A DNA stretch of 64,000 nucleotides from assembly GCA_017501255.1 (NCBI GenBank), contig JAFVXE010000034.1:1-64000 (forward strand), read 5' to 3'. The notes beneath the pieces were generated by a model. That model saw only the letters and a program-made list of their open reading frames with translations. It had not been told where the DNA came from and did not search any database. The translations under genes were made by a program, and so were the position numbers. Source of the DNA: Clostridia bacterium (GTDB taxonomy: Bacteria; Bacillota; Clostridia; Christensenellales; Aristaeellaceae). This document shows, in pieces, positions 1-61,922 of this stretch. Within the stretch, counting starts at the first letter, position 1. Each line of letters begins with the position of its first letter.

Positions 1-3000
1 ACTGGTCTGGATGTGTACAAGGCTGGTACGAAGATCACCTACACCGTGGACGAGGTAACCCTCGGTGAGGATGGCAAGTATGTGAGCTATAAGCCCGATG
101 ATTACACGAAGGAGATCACTGGTACTGCGGCTGCCGGCTTCCTGGTAACCAACAAGCATGAGCCTGAAAAGATTACCATCTCCGGTACCAAGACCTGGGA
201 TGACGCAAACGATCAGGATGGTATCCGTCCCACCAGCATCACCATCAACCTGCTGGCCAATGGCACCAAGCTCACCAGCAAGAATGTTACCGCCAACGAC
301 GGTTGGAAGTGGAGCTGGACCGGCCTTGACAAGTACAAGGATGGCAAGGAAATCGAGTACACCATCACTGAGGATGCGGTGAACGGTTACAAGACCGCCA
401 TCAACGGCTATGATGTGGAGAACACGCATAAGCCTGAACTGGTCGAGGTTGTCGGTTCCAAGACCTGGAACGATGCTGATAATCAGGACAAGAAGCGTCC
501 CGAAAGCATCACCATCAACCTGCTGGCTGACGGTGAGAAGATCAACAGCCAGACTATCAAGCCCGATACCAATGGTAACTGGCCCGGCTGGAAGTTCGAG
601 GATCTGCCCAAGTTCAAGGCAGGCAAGGAGATCAACTACACCATCACCGAGAACGCTGTTGCCGGATATACCACCTCGGTTACCGGCTACAATGTAGAGA
701 ACTCCTACAAACCCGGTGTTACCAGTGTGACTGTCTCCAAAACCTGGGATGATGATAATAACCGCGACGGTATCCGTCCCACCAGCATTACCTTCAACCT
801 GCTGGCTGACGGTGAGAAGTTTGGCAGCAAGACCATCACGCCCGATGCCGATGGTAACTGGCCCACTTGCACCTTCGATAACCTGCCCATCAACAAGGTT
901 GGCAAGGTTGGTCAGAAAGTGATCTACACTGTGACCGAAGATGTTGTGGATGGCTATACCGCCACCTTCGAAGACGATGCTGCTACCGGTTATGTATTCA
1001 CCAATACCCATAAGATCACTACCACCAATATCTCCGGCACCAAGACCTGGGATGACGCAAACGATCAGGATGGTATCCGTCCCGAAAGCATCACCATCCG
1101 TCTGCTGGCCAATGGCACTGCCGTTCGCAGCGCAGAAGTGAAGGCTGATGAAAAGGGCGAATGGAAGTACACCTTCACTGATCTGCCCGTCAATGAGAAT
1201 GGCAAGGCAATTACCTATACCATCTCCGAAGATCCCATTACCCTCAGCTCCGAAAAGACCAAGACTGGTTACACGACCACGATCGACGGCTTCAACGTGA
1301 AGAATACTCATGTGCCTGAGACTACGGAAGTGACCGTCACCAAGGATTGGGATGACGCTGACAACCAGGATGGCAAGCGTCCTGAAAGCATCACCATCCG
1401 TCTGTATGCCAATGGCAATGAGGTGGATAGCGAAACCATCTCTGCTGATGCGAATGGCAAGTGGAGCTTTACCTTCACCGATCTGCCCAAGTTTGCAGCC
1501 GGTAAGGAAATTGTCTACACCATCAGTGAAGATGCTGTGGATAAGTACACCACCGAAATCGACGGCTTCAGCGTGACCAACACGCACGTGCCCGAGACCA
1601 CGGAAGTGACTGTCACCAAGACCTGGACCGACGCTGATGACCAGGATGGTTATCGCCCCGATAGCATTATCATCAACCTGTTTGCCAATGGCGAAAAGGT
1701 GAAGAGCGAGACCATCTCCGTTGATACGGAAGGCAATTGGAGCCATACCTTCACCGAGCTGCCCAAGTACGCAGCCGGCAAGGAGATTGCCTACACCATC
1801 ACCGAAGAAGCAGTGGCTGAATACACCACTGTCATCGACGGCTTCAATGTGGAGAACACCCACAAGCCCGAAGTGGTTGAAGTGTCCGGTACCAAGACCT
1901 GGACCGACGCCGACGACCAGGATGGTTATCGTCCCACCTCCATCACCATCAACCTGCTGTCTGACGGCCATGTGGTCAAGACTGCTGTCGTCACTGAGGC
2001 CGATGGCTGGAGCTGGAACTTCACCGAGCTGCCCAAGTATCGTGATCAGGGTGTCGAAATCGTCTACACCATCACCGAAGAAGCAGTGGCTGAATACACC
2101 ACCGACATCGCCGGCTATGATGTGACCAACACCCACGAGCCCGAAGTGGTTGAAGTGTCCGGTACCAAGACCTGGGCCGACGCTGATAACCAGGATGGCA
2201 AGCGTCCTGCCTCCATCACCATCAACCTGCTGGCCGATGGCGTGATCGTCAAGACCGCCACTGTCACCGAGGCCGATGGCTGGAGCTGGAACTTCACCGA
2301 GCTGCCCAAGTATCGCGATCAAGGTATCGAAATCGTCTATACCATCACTGAGGTTGCGGTGGCTGAATACACCACCCAGATCAACGGCTATGATGTGACC
2401 AACACCCACGAGCCCGAACTGATCGAGGTTGCCGGTTCCAAGACCTGGAACGACGCCGACAATCAGGATGGCAAGCGTCCCACCAGCATTGTGATCAAGC
2501 TGATGGATGGCGCTACCGTGGTGAAGGCGCTCACCGTTACCGAGGCTGACGGCTGGAAGTGGAGCTTCACCGACCTGCCCAAGTACCGTCCCGGCGCTGT
2601 AGGCGATGAGATCAAGTACAGCATCGTTGAGGAACTGGATCAGGCCAGTGCTGCTGAATACACCGCCACCGTGGATGGCTACAACATCACCAACAGCTAC
2701 ACTCCCGAAACCGTTCAGATCTCCGGTTCCAAGACCTGGAACGACCTGAACAACAAGTACCTCAAGCGTCCCGATAGCGTGACCATCCGCTTGCTGGCTG
2801 ATGGCACGGAAATCGACCATAAGGTGGTTACCGAGGCCGACAACTGGAGCTGGACCTTCACTGGCTTGCCCAAGTACAAGGCTGGCGAAGTTGGCAAGGA
2901 AGTCGTGTACACCATCACGGAAGATTTGGTTACCGGCTACATCACCACGGTTGAGGACTACAACGTTACCAATGCGATGAACATGGTTGAGTTCATCAAG

Positions 3001-4215
3001 ACCGATGAGCAGACCGGCAAGCGGTTGGCCGGCGCCAAGTTCGCTCTCTACGAGGGCGCTCTGGGCACCTACGATGAAAGCAAGCCCGTCGAAACCTGGG
3101 TATCCGATCTGAATACCAAGATGCTCACCGGCCTGAAGGTTGGTCAGACCTACACCATCGTTGAAACGGAAGCGCCCTCCGGCTACGCCATGATGACGCC
3201 CTTCCAGTTCACCGTGCAGCTGACCGACATCCCCGGCACCTACCGTGCCTTCTCCGTCAGCAACTGCCACGTGTATCGTTTCCGCAAGCTGGATAGCTCC
3301 AACAACGGTCTGGTATACGGCGCCAAGCTGGCTGTGCTGGATGGCAACAATGCTGTTATTGAAAGCTGGGTAACCAGTGATGCCAACGGCGGCTGGCACG
3401 AAATTGCTGATCACCGTCTGGTGGCTGGTAAGGAATACACGCTGGTTGAATTGGAAGCTCCCTTCGGATATGAGCTGGCCGATCCGATCACCTTCTCTGT
3501 GGATGAAGAAAAGGGTATGTTGGTTGTCAACGACAGCTACACTGCCAAGGCAGAAGTGGTCATGTATGACAGCCCCATCCCCGAAGCAACGCCCACGCCC
3601 GAACCCACCACCACCTCCTACAGCGTAACCAAGCGTTGGGAGGATAAGGACAACGTTCTGGGTCTGCGTCCCAGCAGCATCACGGTGCATCTGTACCGGA
3701 AGCTGCGCACCGAGGCGGAGTATCCTGCCGCTGCCTTCATGACGGTTCATATGAACAGCAATGGCAAGAACGTTTGGAACTTCACCTTCGAGGATCTGCC
3801 GCGCCGCAGCGAGGATGGCATCCTGTATGACTACACCATCGTTGAGGAGCCGGTAGAGGGCTATGTGACCTCTTACCTGAACAATGGTAAGACGATCGTG
3901 AACAGCATCCCCGAGGAGGACTTCCCGCCCACGCCTACGCCCACCCTGCCCTATGTGACGCCTACTCCCAGCCCGATGCCTCGCGTGCCTGCCGGCGTGC
4001 AGTTCATCGATGGCGAGTGGATGTACATCGATGAATACGGTATCCCGCTTGGCGGTATCCCGCTGACCGGTGATAACACCAACTTCATCCTGTGGGGTAT
4101 GGCCATTGGCCTGCCGCTGCTGGTTGCCGCTCTGGCTGCTGTGGAAATCCGCCGCCGCAAGAAGCTGCTGGCTGCTGCTGAGCAGGAGGAAGAAGTGGAA
4201 GACTTCGAGGAGTAA
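1..4215 (+). CDS. Cna-B repeat LPXTG-like surface adhesin (5' end outside window)
   Basis: The reading frame is already open at base 1, so the N-terminus lies upstream. The visible ~1404 residues hold ten Cna-B type repeats of about 90 residues, each opening with a K-T/D-W-x-D motif followed by RP and closing with a YTITE-like motif. Two SpaA/prealbumin-like domains follow (roughly residues 1000-1190, from VEFIKTDEQTGKRLAGAKF), then an eleventh Cna-B repeat (VTKRWEDKDN), a Pro/Thr-rich stretch, the sorting-like motif IPLTGD, one membrane helix and RRRKK. Such repeats are known to self-stabilise by Lys-Asn/Asp isopeptide bonds and to act as rigid stalks. Wall attachment by a sortase is inferred; a sortase gene lies immediately downstream. 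An acidic tail (EQEEEVEDFEE) beyond the basic cluster is unusual. The ligand is unknown. Confidence 0.9.
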   Translation, partial: TGLDVYKAGTKITYTVDEVTLGEDGKYVSYKPDDYTKEITGTAAAGFLVTNKHEPEKITISGTKTWDDANDQDGIRPTSITINLLANGTKLTSKNVTANDGWKWSWTGLDKYKDGKEIEYTITEDAVNGYKTAINGYDVENTHKPELVEVVGSKTWNDADNQDKKRPESITINLLADGEKINSQTIKPDTNGNWPGWKFEDLPKFKAGKEINYTITENAVAGYTTSVTGYNVENSYKPGVTSVTVSKTWDDDNNRDGIRPTSITFNLLADGEKFGSKTITPDADGNWPTCTFDNLPINKVGKVGQKVIYTVTEDVVDGYTATFEDDAATGYVFTNTHKITTTNISGTKTWDDANDQDGIRPESITIRLLANGTAVRSAEVKADEKGEWKYTFTDLPVNENGKAITYTISEDPITLSSEKTKTGYTTTIDGFNVKNTHVPETTEVTVTKDWDDADNQDGKRPESITIRLYANGNEVDSETISADANGKWSFTFTDLPKFAAGKEIVYTISEDAVDKYTTEIDGFSVTNTHVPETTEVTVTKTWTDADDQDGYRPDSIIINLFANGEKVKSETISVDTEGNWSHTFTELPKYAAGKEIAYTITEEAVAEYTTVIDGFNVENTHKPEVVEVSGTKTWTDADDQDGYRPTSITINLLSDGHVVKTAVVTEADGWSWNFTELPKYRDQGVEIVYTITEEAVAEYTTDIAGYDVTNTHEPEVVEVSGTKTWADADNQDGKRPASITINLLADGVIVKTATVTEADGWSWNFTELPKYRDQGIEIVYTITEVAVAEYTTQINGYDVTNTHEPELIEVAGSKTWNDADNQDGKRPTSIVIKLMDGATVVKALTVTEADGWKWSFTDLPKYRPGAVGDEIKYSIVEELDQASAAEYTATVDGYNITNSYTPETVQISGSKTWNDLNNKYLKRPDSVTIRLLADGTEIDHKVVTEADNWSWTFTGLPKYKAGEVGKEVVYTITEDLVTGYITTVEDYNVTNAMNMVEFIKTDEQTGKRLAGAKFALYEGALGTYDESKPVETWVSDLNTKMLTGLKVGQTYTIVETEAPSGYAMMTPFQFTVQLTDIPGTYRAFSVSNCHVYRFRKLDSSNNGLVYGAKLAVLDGNNAVIESWVTSDANGGWHEIADHRLVAGKEYTLVELEAPFGYELADPITFSVDEEKGMLVVNDSYTAKAEVVMYDSPIPEATPTPEPTTTSYSVTKRWEDKDNVLGLRPSSITVHLYRKLRTEAEYPAAAFMTVHMNSNGKNVWNFTFEDLPRRSEDGILYDYTIVEEPVEGYVTSYLNNGKTIVNSIPEEDFPPTPTPTLPYVTPTPSPMPRVPAGVQFIDGEWMYIDEYGIPLGGIPLTGDNTNFILWGMAIGLPLLVAALAAVEIRRRKKLLAAAEQEEEVEDFEE
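172..2980 (+). repeat. Ten tandem Cna-B coding repeats
   Basis: About 270-300 nt units repeat ten times inside the adhesin gene. Each begins near a KTW/KDW-encoding stretch. Some neighbouring units are almost identical at nucleotide level, for example around 1880-2100 and 2150-2400, which suggests recent expansion. Such an array is prone to copy-number change and to assembly error. Confidence 0.85.
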
Positions 4216-4254: not shown

Positions 4255-4285
4255 AGGGGAGTCGCTGAAAAGCGGCTCCCCTTTT
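4255..4285 (+). terminator. Rho-independent terminator of the adhesin gene
   Basis: A 12-bp stem (AGGGGAGTCGCT with AGCGGCTCCCCT, one G-T pair) closes a GAAA tetraloop and is followed by TTTT. It lies 40 nt after the stop codon. Confidence 0.85.
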
Positions 4286-4508: not shown

Positions 4509-4590
4509 TTGCGCCCATGAAATGGGCGCAAGAAAGGGATTCCAAAGGGCCATTGGCCCTTTGGCGGGGTGCAGGGGCAGCGCCCCTGCC
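4509..4590 (+). repeat. Modular hairpin repeat, copy 2
   Basis: Reference copy in forward orientation. Module A is the palindrome TTGCGCCC-n7-GGGCGCAA. Module B is GGGATTCC followed by an AAAGGGCC/GGCCCTTT stem. Module C is a GTGCAGGGGC/GCCCCTGCC stem. It lies just upstream of the sortase promoter. Confidence 0.8.
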
Positions 4591-4628: not shown

Positions 4629-4637
4629 TGGTATAAT
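4629..4637 (+). promoter_or_regulatory. Extended -10 promoter for the sortase gene
   Basis: TGGTATAAT is a perfect extended -10 (TGnTATAAT), 30 nt upstream of the chosen start. The matching -35 position is weak (T-rich), as expected for extended -10 promoters. Confidence 0.65.
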
Positions 4638-4667
4638 AAAGCAAAGCTGTGCCTGAGGAGGGTGCTT

Positions 4668-6887
4668 ATGGCAAAGAAAACGAAAAAACCAAGCGGCTTT
4701 GGCGGCTTGTATGTGATGATTGCAATCTGTGTTGCGTGTAGTTGTCTGGCTGTTTTTGGCCTGATGGGTAAGTTGGAAACCTATCAGGAAAGCGAGGATA
4801 CTTATGCGGATTTGCAGCAGGCAGCTTTGACCATCGTATCTGAAGAGGAAGCTGCCCAAGAGGCTGCTTCGCCCATGCGTACCATTTCGCCGCAGGAACT
4901 GCTGGCTGCCAAGGAAAGCGGCGAAATGCAGTATTCCAGCGGTGATTCCGATGAACCGGTGCCGTCCTTCAGCCCCACGGGTGAAGTGACGGAAAGGGAG
5001 TCCCAAGGGCCGGAGGAAGAAGAAAACGTGCTGGATGAAGCGCTGGTTTGGATGCTGAAAAACCAGACAGAGGATGAACTGATCACCGACCGTCCCAGAG
5101 CGACCGCCACGCCTGCGCCTTCCCAGACCCCTGCGCCTGCTGCAACGGAAGTTGTTGCGGAAGCAACAGCTGAACCTGTGCAGGAACCAACGGAAGCACC
5201 GCTACCTGATACCGGGTTGCAGACGCTTGCCCCGATGGTGACGGAAGCGCCTGCGGCTGCCAGCGAACCAGTGGTAACACCTCAGGCCACTCCTGCTGCC
5301 ACCGCCGAGGATGGCACGGTTGTGACGATTGAACCCGCCAACACCGATGCAGCAGTGAGCACACCGGCCCCCACCCCCGAACCCACCAATACCCCGGAAC
5401 CAACCCCCACGCCCACCATGACCCCGGTGCCCACCCCCACAGTGCCGCCGTATATTCCCACCAGCGGCATCAGCATGGAGCGGGCGGTGACCATTACCAG
5501 CGCCCGCTATTCGGTGGATTTCGACTATCTGACCACCATCAATGACGAGGTAGTGGGCTGGATTTATCAGGAAGGCACGCCCATTAACTATCCGGTGCTT
5601 CGTGGTGAGGATAATGAATACTACCTGACCCACCTGTTCAATGGTGTGGTCAACTCCTCCGGCTCTGTGTTCATGGACAGCGGCAATTCCGCCGCCTTCA
5701 TTGACAGCGCAACCTATCTGTACGGCCACCACTCCAAAGGCGGCGGTATGTTCGCCACGTTGAGCGAATATCTGGATCCGGCTTATTATGAGGCCCATCC
5801 CCAGTTCCTGCTGGTAACGCCCTTTATGGATTATCAGGTGGATGTGTTTGCCGGTATGGCAACGCTGGTGGAGGACGAGGTAAGCTGGCGGCCCAAGACG
5901 CTGGAAACCGAAGCGGATATGAACGAGTTCCTTGACTTGATTATGTCTCAGAGCTTCATTCAGGCGCCGGAGGATAAGCTGCCCCAGTGGGGCGATAAGC
6001 TGCTGGTGCTGGTCACCTGTACCAACATCCGCAGCGATCAGCGCTACGTGATTTACGGGCGTATGCGGCCCATTGTGTATCAATCCGACGATGAGAGCGT
6101 GAACGCTTCCAAGCAGGAGATGGATCAGCGGCCGACAGAAAACGGCTATGTGACCATCGATGGCGTGGGCACCTTTATGACCTATGCCCAGAACGATGAA
6201 CTCTGGCGCAAGATGCGCTATGAAGCGGGCGGCGTGAACAAGTACCGCAACTTCGGCGATGGCGGCTGCGGCCCCACGGCGGTAGCCATGGCGATTGCCA
6301 ACCTGTGCCCGGTGGAGGAACTGCCCCGCCTGATCGGTTATGCCAATACAGAGGTGGGCTATACCTTCTGCGATTGTTCAGTGAACCGGTATTTCTGCAA
6401 CCATAAGCACGCCCAGTATCAGCTGAGACGGGGCGAGGAATTCCTGCGGTATATGCCGCTGGCGGTTGCCAATTTTGCCACCGGCAATAATATCTGGGAG
6501 ATCAAGTCCCGCAGTGCCAACAGCGGCACCAATATGCGCTTCCTGGAAAAGATCTGCGCCATTTATGGAATCCGTGTCAGCGTTATTGAGGATGTGGATG
6601 AGCTGATCCGGCGCATGGAGGAAGAAAAGGTGGACGGCATCAAGCGCATGGCCATCAGCTGCGCCATCAAGGGCAGCCCCTTTACCAAGAATGGTCATTT
6701 CGTGCTGATCTGCGGGCTGGATGATGAGTATCTGTACTTCCTTGACCCGCTGCGGCGGGATGACTACAGCGATTGCGATCGCAAGGGCTATGCGGAGGTG
6801 CTGGCGCCGGGCGTGGTGCGCATCAGCCGGGAAAACGCCCATGATTGCAATCTGATCCCCTTCTACCTGTTGGAAAAGGTACAGTAA
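4668..6887 (+). CDS. Class B sortase fused to a C39-like cysteine peptidase
   Basis: 739 residues; start chosen at ATG 4668 behind GAGGAGG. Order: short basic N-terminus, one membrane helix (~residues 11-33), an acidic then long Pro/Thr/Ala/Glu-rich linker to ~residue 265, a class B sortase domain (~270-470), and a papain-like C39_2-type domain (~500-739). Visible sortase residues are His354 or His355 in YGHHSKGGGMF, Cys451 in LVTCTN and Arg459 in DQRY. The second domain shows Cys534 in GDGGCGPTAVAM, His677 in KNGHFVLICG and Asp693 in FLDP, a complete Cys-His-Asp triad. A single-pass, outward-facing membrane enzyme is inferred. The upstream adhesin is the obvious candidate substrate. The C39 part could trim precursors, cleave peptidoglycan peptides or process the sortase itself. 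The two assignments are strong; the purpose of the fusion is unknown. Confidence 0.9.
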   Translation: MAKKTKKPSGFGGLYVMIAICVACSCLAVFGLMGKLETYQESEDTYADLQQAALTIVSEEEAAQEAASPMRTISPQELLAAKESGEMQYSSGDSDEPVPSFSPTGEVTERESQGPEEEENVLDEALVWMLKNQTEDELITDRPRATATPAPSQTPAPAATEVVAEATAEPVQEPTEAPLPDTGLQTLAPMVTEAPAAASEPVVTPQATPAATAEDGTVVTIEPANTDAAVSTPAPTPEPTNTPEPTPTPTMTPVPTPTVPPYIPTSGISMERAVTITSARYSVDFDYLTTINDEVVGWIYQEGTPINYPVLRGEDNEYYLTHLFNGVVNSSGSVFMDSGNSAAFIDSATYLYGHHSKGGGMFATLSEYLDPAYYEAHPQFLLVTPFMDYQVDVFAGMATLVEDEVSWRPKTLETEADMNEFLDLIMSQSFIQAPEDKLPQWGDKLLVLVTCTNIRSDQRYVIYGRMRPIVYQSDDESVNASKQEMDQRPTENGYVTIDGVGTFMTYAQNDELWRKMRYEAGGVNKYRNFGDGGCGPTAVAMAIANLCPVEELPRLIGYANTEVGYTFCDCSVNRYFCNHKHAQYQLRRGEEFLRYMPLAVANFATGNNIWEIKSRSANSGTNMRFLEKICAIYGIRVSVIEDVDELIRRMEEEKVDGIKRMAISCAIKGSPFTKNGHFVLICGLDDEYLYFLDPLRRDDYSDCDRKGYAEVLAPGVVRISRENAHDCNLIPFYLLEKVQ

Positions 6888-6901: not shown

Positions 6902-9238
6902 ATGGAAGCAATGATTGGTCTGAGCCAGCGGGATGTGGATGAGCGCATCCGGGCTGGTTTGAGCAATGAAATGCCAAAGACCAAAGACGGCGGCGTAGGA
7001 ATCATCCTGCGCCGCAATCTGTTGACGTTGTTCAATTTGCTCAATGTGCTCATGGCATTGGCCCTGATTTTGGTGGGCAGTTACCGCAACCTGCTGTTCA
7101 TGGGTGTGGTGATTTCCAATGCGCTGATCGGTACTGTGCAGGAATGGAGGGCTAAGCGCACCCATGACCGGCTGGTGCTGCTCAGCGAAGGCAAAGTGAC
7201 CGCCATCCGGGATGGACAGCGGGTACAGCTGGCATCCTCCCGGCTGGTTCAGGATGATGTGGTGATTCTGAGCCGGGGCGATCAGGTACCAGCAGATGCC
7301 AAGGTGCTGGAAGGCACGGCTTCGCTGGATGAATCCCTGTTGACTGGCGAGAGCGCATCGGTGGGCAAAACCACGGGGGATACGCTGTATTCCGGCAGCT
7401 TTGTGAAAAGCGGGCGGATGGTGGCGCAGCTGACCGCCGTTGGGGCAGCCAGCTATGCCGGCAAATTGCAGCTTTCCGCCCGGAAGGTGAAGCATGGCAA
7501 AAGCCGCCTGATGGGCGATCTGCAAAAGCTCATCCGGGTGGTGACGGTGATTTTGCTGCCGGTGGGAGCGCTGCTGTTCTGGAAGCAATACGGCGTTTTG
7601 CGGCTTTCTTTGGAGGACAGTGTGACCAAAACAGTGGCATCCGTGCTGGGCATGATTCCGGAAGGGTTGATGCTGCTGACCTCCGTTGCGCTGGCAGCGG
7701 GCGTGGTAACCCTCGGCCGGAAGGATACCCTGGTCAACGAGCTGTATGGTATCGAGACCCTTGCCCGGACAGATGTAATCTGCATGGACAAAACGGGTAC
7801 GTTAACCGGCGGCGCTATGCAGCTGGAAGAGATTCTTCCCTTTGAAGGCTGGACGGAAGCGCAGATCCGCCAGCGGCTGTACGGTCTGCTCAGCGCTTTG
7901 CCGTCCGATTCGCCCACCAATGCTGCCCTTGCGGAGGCCATCGGTGCAGAAGATGCTGATCGTGCATTGGAAGTGATCCCCTTTTCCAGTGAACGGAAAT
8001 GGTCTGCTGCCAGACTGGCAACGCTGGGTACGGTCGTAATGGGTGCGCCGGAGCGTTTGTGCAGCGGTCAGTGGCTGGATGCGGCACAGGCAGAGGCGGC
8101 CAAGGGGTTGCGGGTGCTGGCTGTGCTCACTGGCGATGGGTGGCCCTCGCCGGAGACGGAAATTCCAGAAGATTTGCAGCCCATGGCGCTGGTCACCCTC
8201 AGCGATTCCCTACGCCCCCAGGTGCAGGAAACTATCCGCTATTTTGACGGGCAGGATGTGCGCCTGTTGGTGATTTCCGGCGACAGCCCGGTAACCGTCG
8301 CCCGTGTGGCAGCGGATGCCGGTCTGCCGGATGCGGAGAAAGCCGTGGATTTGTCGGCGATTCCGGGAGAAAAGGATTATACCGCCCTGAGCCGTGACTA
8401 TACGGTGTTCGGTCGGGTATCCCCGGAGGATAAGTGCGGTTTGGTACGGGCTTTGCAGGCGGATGGTCACAGCGTTGCCATGATTGGCGACGGTGTGAAT
8501 GATATTCCCGCCCTGAAAGCAGCGGATTGTTCCATTGCCATGGCCGGGGGCAGCGATGCCGCCAGCCGGGTGGCGCAGATGACCCTGATGGGCGGCGGTT
8601 TTGAGGCCATGCCCCAGATTCTTTTGGAAGGCAGGCGGGTGATCAATAACATCACTCGGGCAGCGGCACTGTTTCTGGTGAAGAATATTTTCTCCCTGCT
8701 GTTGTCGCTGGCCATGCTGGCGCTGCCGTTTGCCTATCCCTTCGCCCCCATTCAGCTGACGCTGATTTCCACCCTGACGGTGGGCTTCCCCTCCTTTGTG
8801 CTGGCATTGCAGCCCAACAAGGAACGGGTTCGGGGCAGTTTTCTGCGCAATGTGATTGCCCGGGCACTGCCCGGGGGATTGTGCGTATCGCTGCTGTCGG
8901 TGGGCATTATGCTGCTGAGCAAGCCCCTTGGTTATGGAGAGGATGTGTGCGCCACCCTGTGCACGCTGGCAGGGGCTATTTCCGGCTTTGTCACCCTGTA
9001 CCTGACCTGTCGCCCGCTGGATGGCATCCGTACTGGTTTATTGGCGGTGGTGGCGGCGGGACTGACAGGCGCAGTGCTGCTTTTTCCCCAAGTGTTCTAT
9101 CTGGTGCCGCTGGATCGGATACAGCGGTTTGTGCTGGCTGGATGCGCCGTATTGTGCGTGCCGTTGCAGGTGGGGCTGGGCGCTTTGATCCGTGGGTTTC
9201 GCAAGGAACAGACCGGCAGAACAGCGGTACAGGGCTGA
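6902..9238 (+). CDS. Cation-transporting P-type ATPase, CtpE-like
   Basis: 778 residues; ATG 6902 with AAAGGAG eight bases upstream, 14 nt after the sortase-fusion stop, so probably co-transcribed. Visible P-ATPase signatures are LLTGES (actuator domain), DKTGTLT with the phosphorylated Asp296, and GDGVNDIPALKAADCSIAMA in the hinge. The membrane motif IPEGLMLLTS and the following LVNELYGIETLAR resemble the CtpE group, reported to move Ca2+ in mycobacteria; there is no CPx metal motif and no N-terminal metal-binding domain. About eight to ten membrane helices are expected. Substrate (Ca2+ or Mg2+ more likely than heavy metals) is inferred from family resemblance only. Confidence 0.88.
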   Translation: MEAMIGLSQRDVDERIRAGLSNEMPKTKDGGVGIILRRNLLTLFNLLNVLMALALILVGSYRNLLFMGVVISNALIGTVQEWRAKRTHDRLVLLSEGKVTAIRDGQRVQLASSRLVQDDVVILSRGDQVPADAKVLEGTASLDESLLTGESASVGKTTGDTLYSGSFVKSGRMVAQLTAVGAASYAGKLQLSARKVKHGKSRLMGDLQKLIRVVTVILLPVGALLFWKQYGVLRLSLEDSVTKTVASVLGMIPEGLMLLTSVALAAGVVTLGRKDTLVNELYGIETLARTDVICMDKTGTLTGGAMQLEEILPFEGWTEAQIRQRLYGLLSALPSDSPTNAALAEAIGAEDADRALEVIPFSSERKWSAARLATLGTVVMGAPERLCSGQWLDAAQAEAAKGLRVLAVLTGDGWPSPETEIPEDLQPMALVTLSDSLRPQVQETIRYFDGQDVRLLVISGDSPVTVARVAADAGLPDAEKAVDLSAIPGEKDYTALSRDYTVFGRVSPEDKCGLVRALQADGHSVAMIGDGVNDIPALKAADCSIAMAGGSDAASRVAQMTLMGGGFEAMPQILLEGRRVINNITRAAALFLVKNIFSLLLSLAMLALPFAYPFAPIQLTLISTLTVGFPSFVLALQPNKERVRGSFLRNVIARALPGGLCVSLLSVGIMLLSKPLGYGEDVCATLCTLAGAISGFVTLYLTCRPLDGIRTGLLAVVAAGLTGAVLLFPQVFYLVPLDRIQRFVLAGCAVLCVPLQVGLGALIRGFRKEQTGRTAVQG

Positions 9239-61818: not shown

Positions 61819-61922
61819 TTGCGCCCATGAAATGGGCGCAATGATGGGATTCCAAAGGGATGAAATCCCTTTGGCAGGGTGCAGGGGCAGCGCCCCTGCC
61901 AAGGTTTGGGGCAGCGCCCCAA
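61819..61922 (+). repeat. Modular hairpin repeat, copy 13 (four modules)
   Basis: Module A identical to copies 2 and 9; B CCAAAGGGAT/ATCCCTTTGG; C GCAGGGGCAGCGCCCCTGC; plus D TTGGGGCAGCGCCCCAA as in copy 8. It is the most complete copy and lies between the dapA terminator and dapB. Confidence 0.82.

Follow-up and report, generated by a model that had tools for sequence, protein, structure and literature searches.

The window analysed here is a stretch of 64,000 nt from a gut-type Clostridia bacterium of the family Aristaeellaceae (GenBank assembly GCA_017501255.1, contig JAFVXE010000034.1); its genes and gene elements described below lie on the forward strand. It begins with a Cna_B adhesin gene (1..4215) whose N-terminus is lost at the contig start and which, by Pfam, encodes 11 Cna_B and two SpaA domains; all 11 Cna_B matches found in the window's genome fall within this gene. 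The adhesin ends in an extended sorting signal (3997..4173) made up of DGEWMYIDEYGIPLGGIPLTGD, a hydrophobic stretch and RRRKK, which scores 103.7 bits with the signal profile described below. The next gene is an uninterrupted ORF encoding 739 aa (4668..6887, stop codon 6885-6887), the sortase B-C39 fusion gene that is the subject of this study, and next downstream is a P-type ATPase gene (6902..9238), whose best specific model reached 254 bits against a cut-off of 615.5 (query 6905-9235). Reading the sequence upstream of the fusion ATG (4668) revealed a Shine-Dalgarno-like AGGAGGG (4656..4662) and an extended -10-like promoter element, TGGTATAAT (4629..4637), the latter absent from the output of the site scan. 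A terminator-like hairpin of 12 pairs separates adhesin and fusion (4255..4282); this is weak evidence, given that the hairpin scan returned four terminator-like sites where 4.7 were expected. With a hairpin and a promoter-like element intervening, co-transcription of the two genes is not a given. A GC-rich palindromic repeat, GGGGTGCAGGGGCAGCGCCCCTGCC, occurs at 4566-4590 in this intergenic region and a second time, far from it, at 61876-61900 (zero and one mismatch, none expected).

The two heads of the fusion protein

The predicted protein starts with a transmembrane anchor, recognised by hydrophobicity (residues ~13-32; 4704..4763), followed by a linker that is 29% Pro+Thr (4767..5510), a class-B-type sortase domain (residues 282-466; 5511..6065) and a C39-like papain-fold peptidase domain (residues ~481-739; 6108..6884). 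AlphaFold2 modelled the ectodomain, both heads together, with a pLDDT of 90.6 and a pTM of 0.86. An initial annotation, made from the sequence alone, had described a membrane protein with a Pro/Thr linker and two cysteine active sites in one chain; anchor and linker were found, every active-site residue that it named is present at the number given, and both folds are predicted. We take the window protein to be a membrane-anchored surface enzyme with two heads, a sortase and a papain-like peptidase. The domain order is kept in the 28 fusions described below, so this architecture is not due to chance.

The sortase head matches the sortase superfamily model PF04203 (28.3 bits, above the 26.6 cut-off); its class B assignment by NCBIfam narrowly missed (TIGR03064; 152.5 bits, 1.25 bits short of the naming cut-off of 153.75), and we therefore use the label class-B-type. 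A phmmer search against the PDB matched sortase B (E 5.3e-26). In structural comparison, the domain model superimposed on S. aureus SrtB with Z 24.1 (191 aa, 3.0 A) and on S. pyogenes Spy0129 with Z 21.9; its best 16 structural matches are all class B (Z 19.0-24.1), and the next sortase, of class A, scored 11.9. The window fusion retains the catalytic set His354 (5727-5729), Cys451 (6018-6020) and Arg459 (6042-6044). The initial annotation had allowed either His354 or His355. The catalytic residue is predicted to be His354, because this position is His in 14/14 sortase-intact fusions, whereas position 355 is His in eight, Asn in five and Tyr in one; the Spy0129 structure is described as having resolved the same HH ambiguity in favour of the first His (PMC3019223). 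Two further residues of the domain, Trp407 and Pro439, are specific to the fusions. Trp407 is present in all 28, dead sortases included, and in one of nine stand-alone SrtB rows; Pro439 is fixed or nearly so among fusions and occurs in none of those nine rows. Since both are fixed or nearly fixed in fusions and rare in stand-alone SrtB, they may mark a contact with the C39 domain.

The second head scored 20.8 bits with PF13529 in the whole protein and 24.5 as a domain alone, on either side of the cut-off of 24; 34 of 35 aligned relatives of the domain match the same model at E<=0.01. The initial annotation had named the lack of a papain-like fold as a finding that would overturn it. On the contrary, the AlphaFold2 model of the domain is confident (pLDDT 94.8, pTM 0.93) and resembles PCAT1 (Z 11.9, 136 aa, 2.5 A), ComA (11.6), PeiR (11.6) and staphopain (11.2). 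The active-site residues Gln508 (codon at 6189), Cys534 (6267), His677 (6696) and Asp693 (6744) are all intact in the window fusion, and across 47 aligned C39 rows, whose stand-alone members are 19 of 64 (L072 not among them; the C39 tree uses the same sample), they are kept in 47, 44, 47 and 46, respectively. Pfam found no ABC domain in the window protein, which accordingly falls outside the classical C39 transporters (PF03412). Most of the 47 rows also retain a C-x-C-x6-C-x3-H motif (C568, C570, C577 and H581 in the window; 6369..6410). Cys and His replace one another in the motif of L046, L067, L068 and L162, and the motif residues are lost together in L153 and L154. Because such swaps and joint loss fit what is expected of a metal site, we regard this putative knuckle as a probable one. 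The predicted fold and conserved residues make it likely that the C39 head is an active endopeptidase.

Distribution of the fusion and of its dead sortases

We searched 308 genomes of the bacterial family to which the window belongs with a profile of the C39 domain. The search gave 93 places with a strong match (E<=1.5e-30; the next was at 3.3e-12): 28 are fusions, spread over 19 genomes, 64 are stand-alone genes and one is a truncated copy (G036, L061; excluded from the 28). Fusion state was called from the locus sequences examined and, for the remaining places, from open-frame length. Within the window's genus, a fusion occurs in 14 of 17 genomes. At order level, 11 of 396 genomes matched at E<=1e-15, all of them from the window's family, and at phylum level the only match among 398 genomes was the window's own. 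A search of GTDB contigs for one conserved peptide pattern returned 34 loci. Their titles denote clostridial MAGs in every case except L112 ('bacterium'); one of the loci is from Candidatus Limiplasma stercoravium. Set A1 consisted of 22 of 38 C39 stretches, and set A2 of the 21 fusions among the 34 GTDB loci plus the window. We conclude that the fusion is a conserved but narrow family. A viral origin found no support, since none of 159 pattern matches among viral contigs was confirmed as a relative; nor did a plasmid origin, as none of 25 plasmid records covered 80% of the query and the five records listed matched the sortase part only. On the C39 tree the fusions do not form a single clade, although the starred branches still allow one origin.

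The fusions exist in two states. Sortase His and Cys are both kept in 14 of the 28 and both lost in the other 14; no fusion has lost both heads. Among sortase-intact fusions the N-terminus is visible in 13, and all of these carry a hydrophobic anchor and then a linker 105-302 residues long, whereas in the 14 dead-sortase fusions a hydrophobic stretch is followed by a short segment of 0-40 residues. An A-x-A lies near that stretch in 11 of the 14 dead-sortase fusions, compared with 4 of the 13 sortase-intact ones. Given the hydrophobic stretch, the short segment after it and the frequent A-x-A, the dead-sortase fusions look secreted. The reciprocal loss also occurs: in three sortase-intact fusions (L047, L049 and L050) the C39 Cys is replaced by Ser, corresponding to two changes on the tree, and each of these genomes holds a paralogue with the sortase dead and the C39 head intact (L051, L055 and L054, respectively). 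More generally, of nine genomes in the window's genus that have a sortase-intact fusion, seven, among them the window's own, also have a dead-sortase paralogue. Sortase state changes once on the combined tree and twice on both the C39 and the sortase tree; grouping the dead-sortase rows together was not rejected (p-AU 0.17, 0.32 and 0.37), so that one loss and several are indistinguishable.

Losses in the dead sortases are concentrated at a few positions. All 14 fusions are open across both domains, the residues specifically lost are His354, Cys451, Tyr308 and Met361, and Arg459 is kept in 12 of 14. A profile built from ten of these dead sortases (set A5) still matches SrtB structures (E 3.7e-32). 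In all five dead-sortase pairs dN was lower than dS, a rough estimate given that dS was infinite in one pair and above 2 in two; the ratio of sortase to C39 dN was 0.89-1.61 in these pairs, compared with 0.49-1.22 in four pairs in which neither head is dead. By these measures the dead sortases look to be under selection.

Two further observations concern individual genomes. In G018, a TAG lies in frame within the C39 part of the sortase-intact fusion of locus L046; apart from a single in-frame TAG each, fusion and neighbouring adhesin (L046:7603 and L046:12891) have open frames. Genome-wide recoding of TAG is unlikely, because the listed ABC-domain rows of this genome show no internal stop. 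The window's genome encodes on another contig (C10, L007:6172-9576) a further sortase B-like domain that lacks the catalytic His and Cys, with LSTVT in place of the LSTC of SrtB (PDB SrtB, E 3.4e-10); this protein of ~1135 aa has a long N-terminal part, one membrane segment and the sortase-like domain at its C-terminus.

Adhesins with an extended sorting signal

The initial annotation had pointed to the neighbouring Cna_B gene and proposed a survey of other Clostridia for fusion and neighbour; in the 308 genomes the association recurs at sortase-intact loci. An upstream gene is visible at 11 of these and encodes Cna_B domains at 10 (all but L046); four genes on each side of the 14 dead-sortase fusions include no Cna_B gene. 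The P-type ATPase, by comparison, is the downstream neighbour at 13 of the 28 fusion loci whether the sortase is intact or dead. The adhesin tails have in common the signal DGEWxYIDEYGxPLGxVPxTGD, which is in the gene directly upstream at 10 of the 11 loci and one gene further upstream at L038, and which also ends adhesins that are unlinked (L200-L204) or lie at a contig edge (L205). Within it, PLGG is found in the window and in L040, L041, L199 and L201, which proves nothing about double-glycine cleavage. A pilus-like cluster (L044:8461-19998) comprises a class C sortase, a backbone pilin, a Cna_B pilin and, last, the fusion. The PLG-type signal is confined there to the Cna_B pilin adjoining the fusion, and the tails of two other pilins are plain LPPTGG/LPVTGG. 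Some adhesins are very large: one in G006 (contig C17; L207 and L208) has an open frame of 9171 codons, and a scan of three pieces of it gave 79 Cna_B stretches.

We built a profile of the signal from 10 of the 11 adhesins adjoining sortase-intact fusions (set A4; the adhesin of L038 is without signal) and searched the 308 genomes. Strong matches (86.9-110.3 bits; the next scored 31.6) lie at 18 places, eight of them from outside the query alignment, and are spread over 13 genomes. Twelve of the 13 genomes hold a sortase-intact fusion, out of 14 genomes that have one, and none of the five genomes with dead-sortase fusions only has the signal (Fisher p 1e-18, uncorrected for relatedness of the genomes). 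This association is helped by related genomes and by a query built from adjacent genes, and the independent-pairs test on the combined tree yielded one pair only; because sortase state changes once on that tree, the link to adhesins amounts to one independent contrast. The exceptions involve contig ends: G152, 66% complete, has the signal without a sortase-intact fusion, the signal gene being at a contig end, and G155 and G156 have a sortase-intact fusion at a contig end without the signal. Because the catalytic residues are intact, an adhesin gene is adjacent and the signal co-occurs, the sortase head very probably attaches Cna_B adhesins with this signal to the wall.

Proposed attachment and cleavage, and their separability

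Our reading, held with moderate confidence, is of a two-headed enzyme in which the sortase attaches adhesins and an independent C39 head most likely clips surface proteins. The sortase head would cleave Cna_B adhesins at the extended signal and link them to the wall, while the C39 head, a separate active site with relatives in a family of secreted proteins, would work independently of it. Its targets might perhaps include the same adhesins near their anchor, which would place attaching and releasing on one chain. This is suggested by the nearest working parallel, in C. difficile, where SrtB is reported to anchor the CnaB adhesin CD2831 and ZmpI to cut it just upstream of the sorting motif (PMC4591827). 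That system likewise combines a class B sortase, a CnaB adhesin and a protease, but as described it uses two separate proteins and a zinc metalloprotease, whereas the fusion is one chain with a cysteine peptidase; only the logic is comparable. Against attach-and-release stands the far wider spread of C39 than of signal-bearing adhesins. Action of the C39 head on the same adhesins is therefore something we put forward tentatively. Its first target is probably elsewhere, because the C39 Cys is replaced in 3 of 14 sortase-intact fusions although adhesin genes adjoin them, and the domain is kept in five signal-less genomes and at 64 stand-alone places.

The alternative that we take most seriously, while thinking it rather less than probable, goes further and holds the C39 head to be unrelated to adhesins: a general secreted-type peptidase, displayed through fusion to a sortase with which it shares only an address, and directed at host, competitor or wall peptides. 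The 64 stand-alone relatives fit this, many of the 19 rows inspected having signal-peptide-like N-termini, as do the C39 residues conserved in the 14 fusions that have a dead sortase and no adjacent adhesin gene, those of the five signal-less genomes, and the presence of PeiR, a wall isopeptidase, among the best structural matches. However, the sortase-fold scaffold and Trp407 persist in 28/28 fusions, including those with a dead sortase, suggesting that the two domains function jointly. An unlikely elaboration of attach-and-release would have an ancestral two-headed enzyme divide its labour among paralogues in G014, G015 and G016, with a membrane-bound, C39-dead sortase attaching adhesins and a secreted C39-pseudosortase releasing them, its dead sortase docking on the sorting-signal region.

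The initial annotation had suggested that protease and transpeptidase trim and attach adhesins in one step. Two active sites per chain, a confident joint ectodomain model and an adjacent Cna_B gene speak for such a coupled reaction, but the heads are lost singly: the three fusions with a C39 Ser lie beside a Cna_B gene, and 14 have a dead sortase and keep C39. An obligate coupling is not supported in view of these losses, and we consider a single coupled reaction very improbable. The two activities appear separable because in these relatives the other head is kept, although in the genomes of L047, L049 and L050 the paralogue could provide C39 in trans. We give hardly any credence to the view that the dead-sortase forms are decaying copies whose pattern has no functional meaning, since the faster evolution of the sortase domain in some dead pairs is outweighed by open frames, dN below dS, the retained match to SrtB structures and the concentration of losses at four positions.

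The preferred two-headed enzyme can be set beside known systems for each of its parts. It resembles the class B sortases S. aureus SrtB and S. pyogenes Spy0129 in fold, His/Cys/Arg set, N-terminal anchor and adjacent adhesin or pilin genes; unlike them, it has a C-terminal papain-like domain and a long Pro/Thr linker, its presumed substrates carry an extended signal of the PLG type, and the active site is dead in 14 of its relatives. With the C39/C39_2 peptidases (PCAT1, ComA, 3erv) the second head shares the papain-like fold and the Gln/Cys/His/Asp set; it differs in having no ABC transporter, ~100 residues beyond the C39 core, the knuckle and the fused sortase. C39_2 members are described in a review as single-domain peptidases (PMC10318531). 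The doubled motif just before the anchor in the adhesin signal recalls NCBIfam LPXTG_double (NF033073), a weak match at 20-23 bits, under the 48-bit cut-off, to which the signal adds the DGEWxYIDEYGxPLG extension. For the pseudosortases there is a precedent in S. pyogenes SipA, reported to be a catalytically dead processing-enzyme fold with a peptide cleft, kept for surface assembly (PMC4049620); as described, it has a signal-peptidase fold and no fused peptidase.

Both domains are of known kinds. What is apparently new is their fusion, together with its pseudosortase forms and the reciprocal loss of the heads: we found no description of any of these in our searches of an open-licence paper library. 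Sortases and papain-like peptidases have each been well studied, and here they are found on a single chain. If our reading is correct, the family would be a natural example of attaching and cutting activities that first came together and later parted. It would also provide a set of dead sortases for which surface conservation indicates a role other than catalysis, and its predicted sorting signal would be amenable to testing with short peptides.
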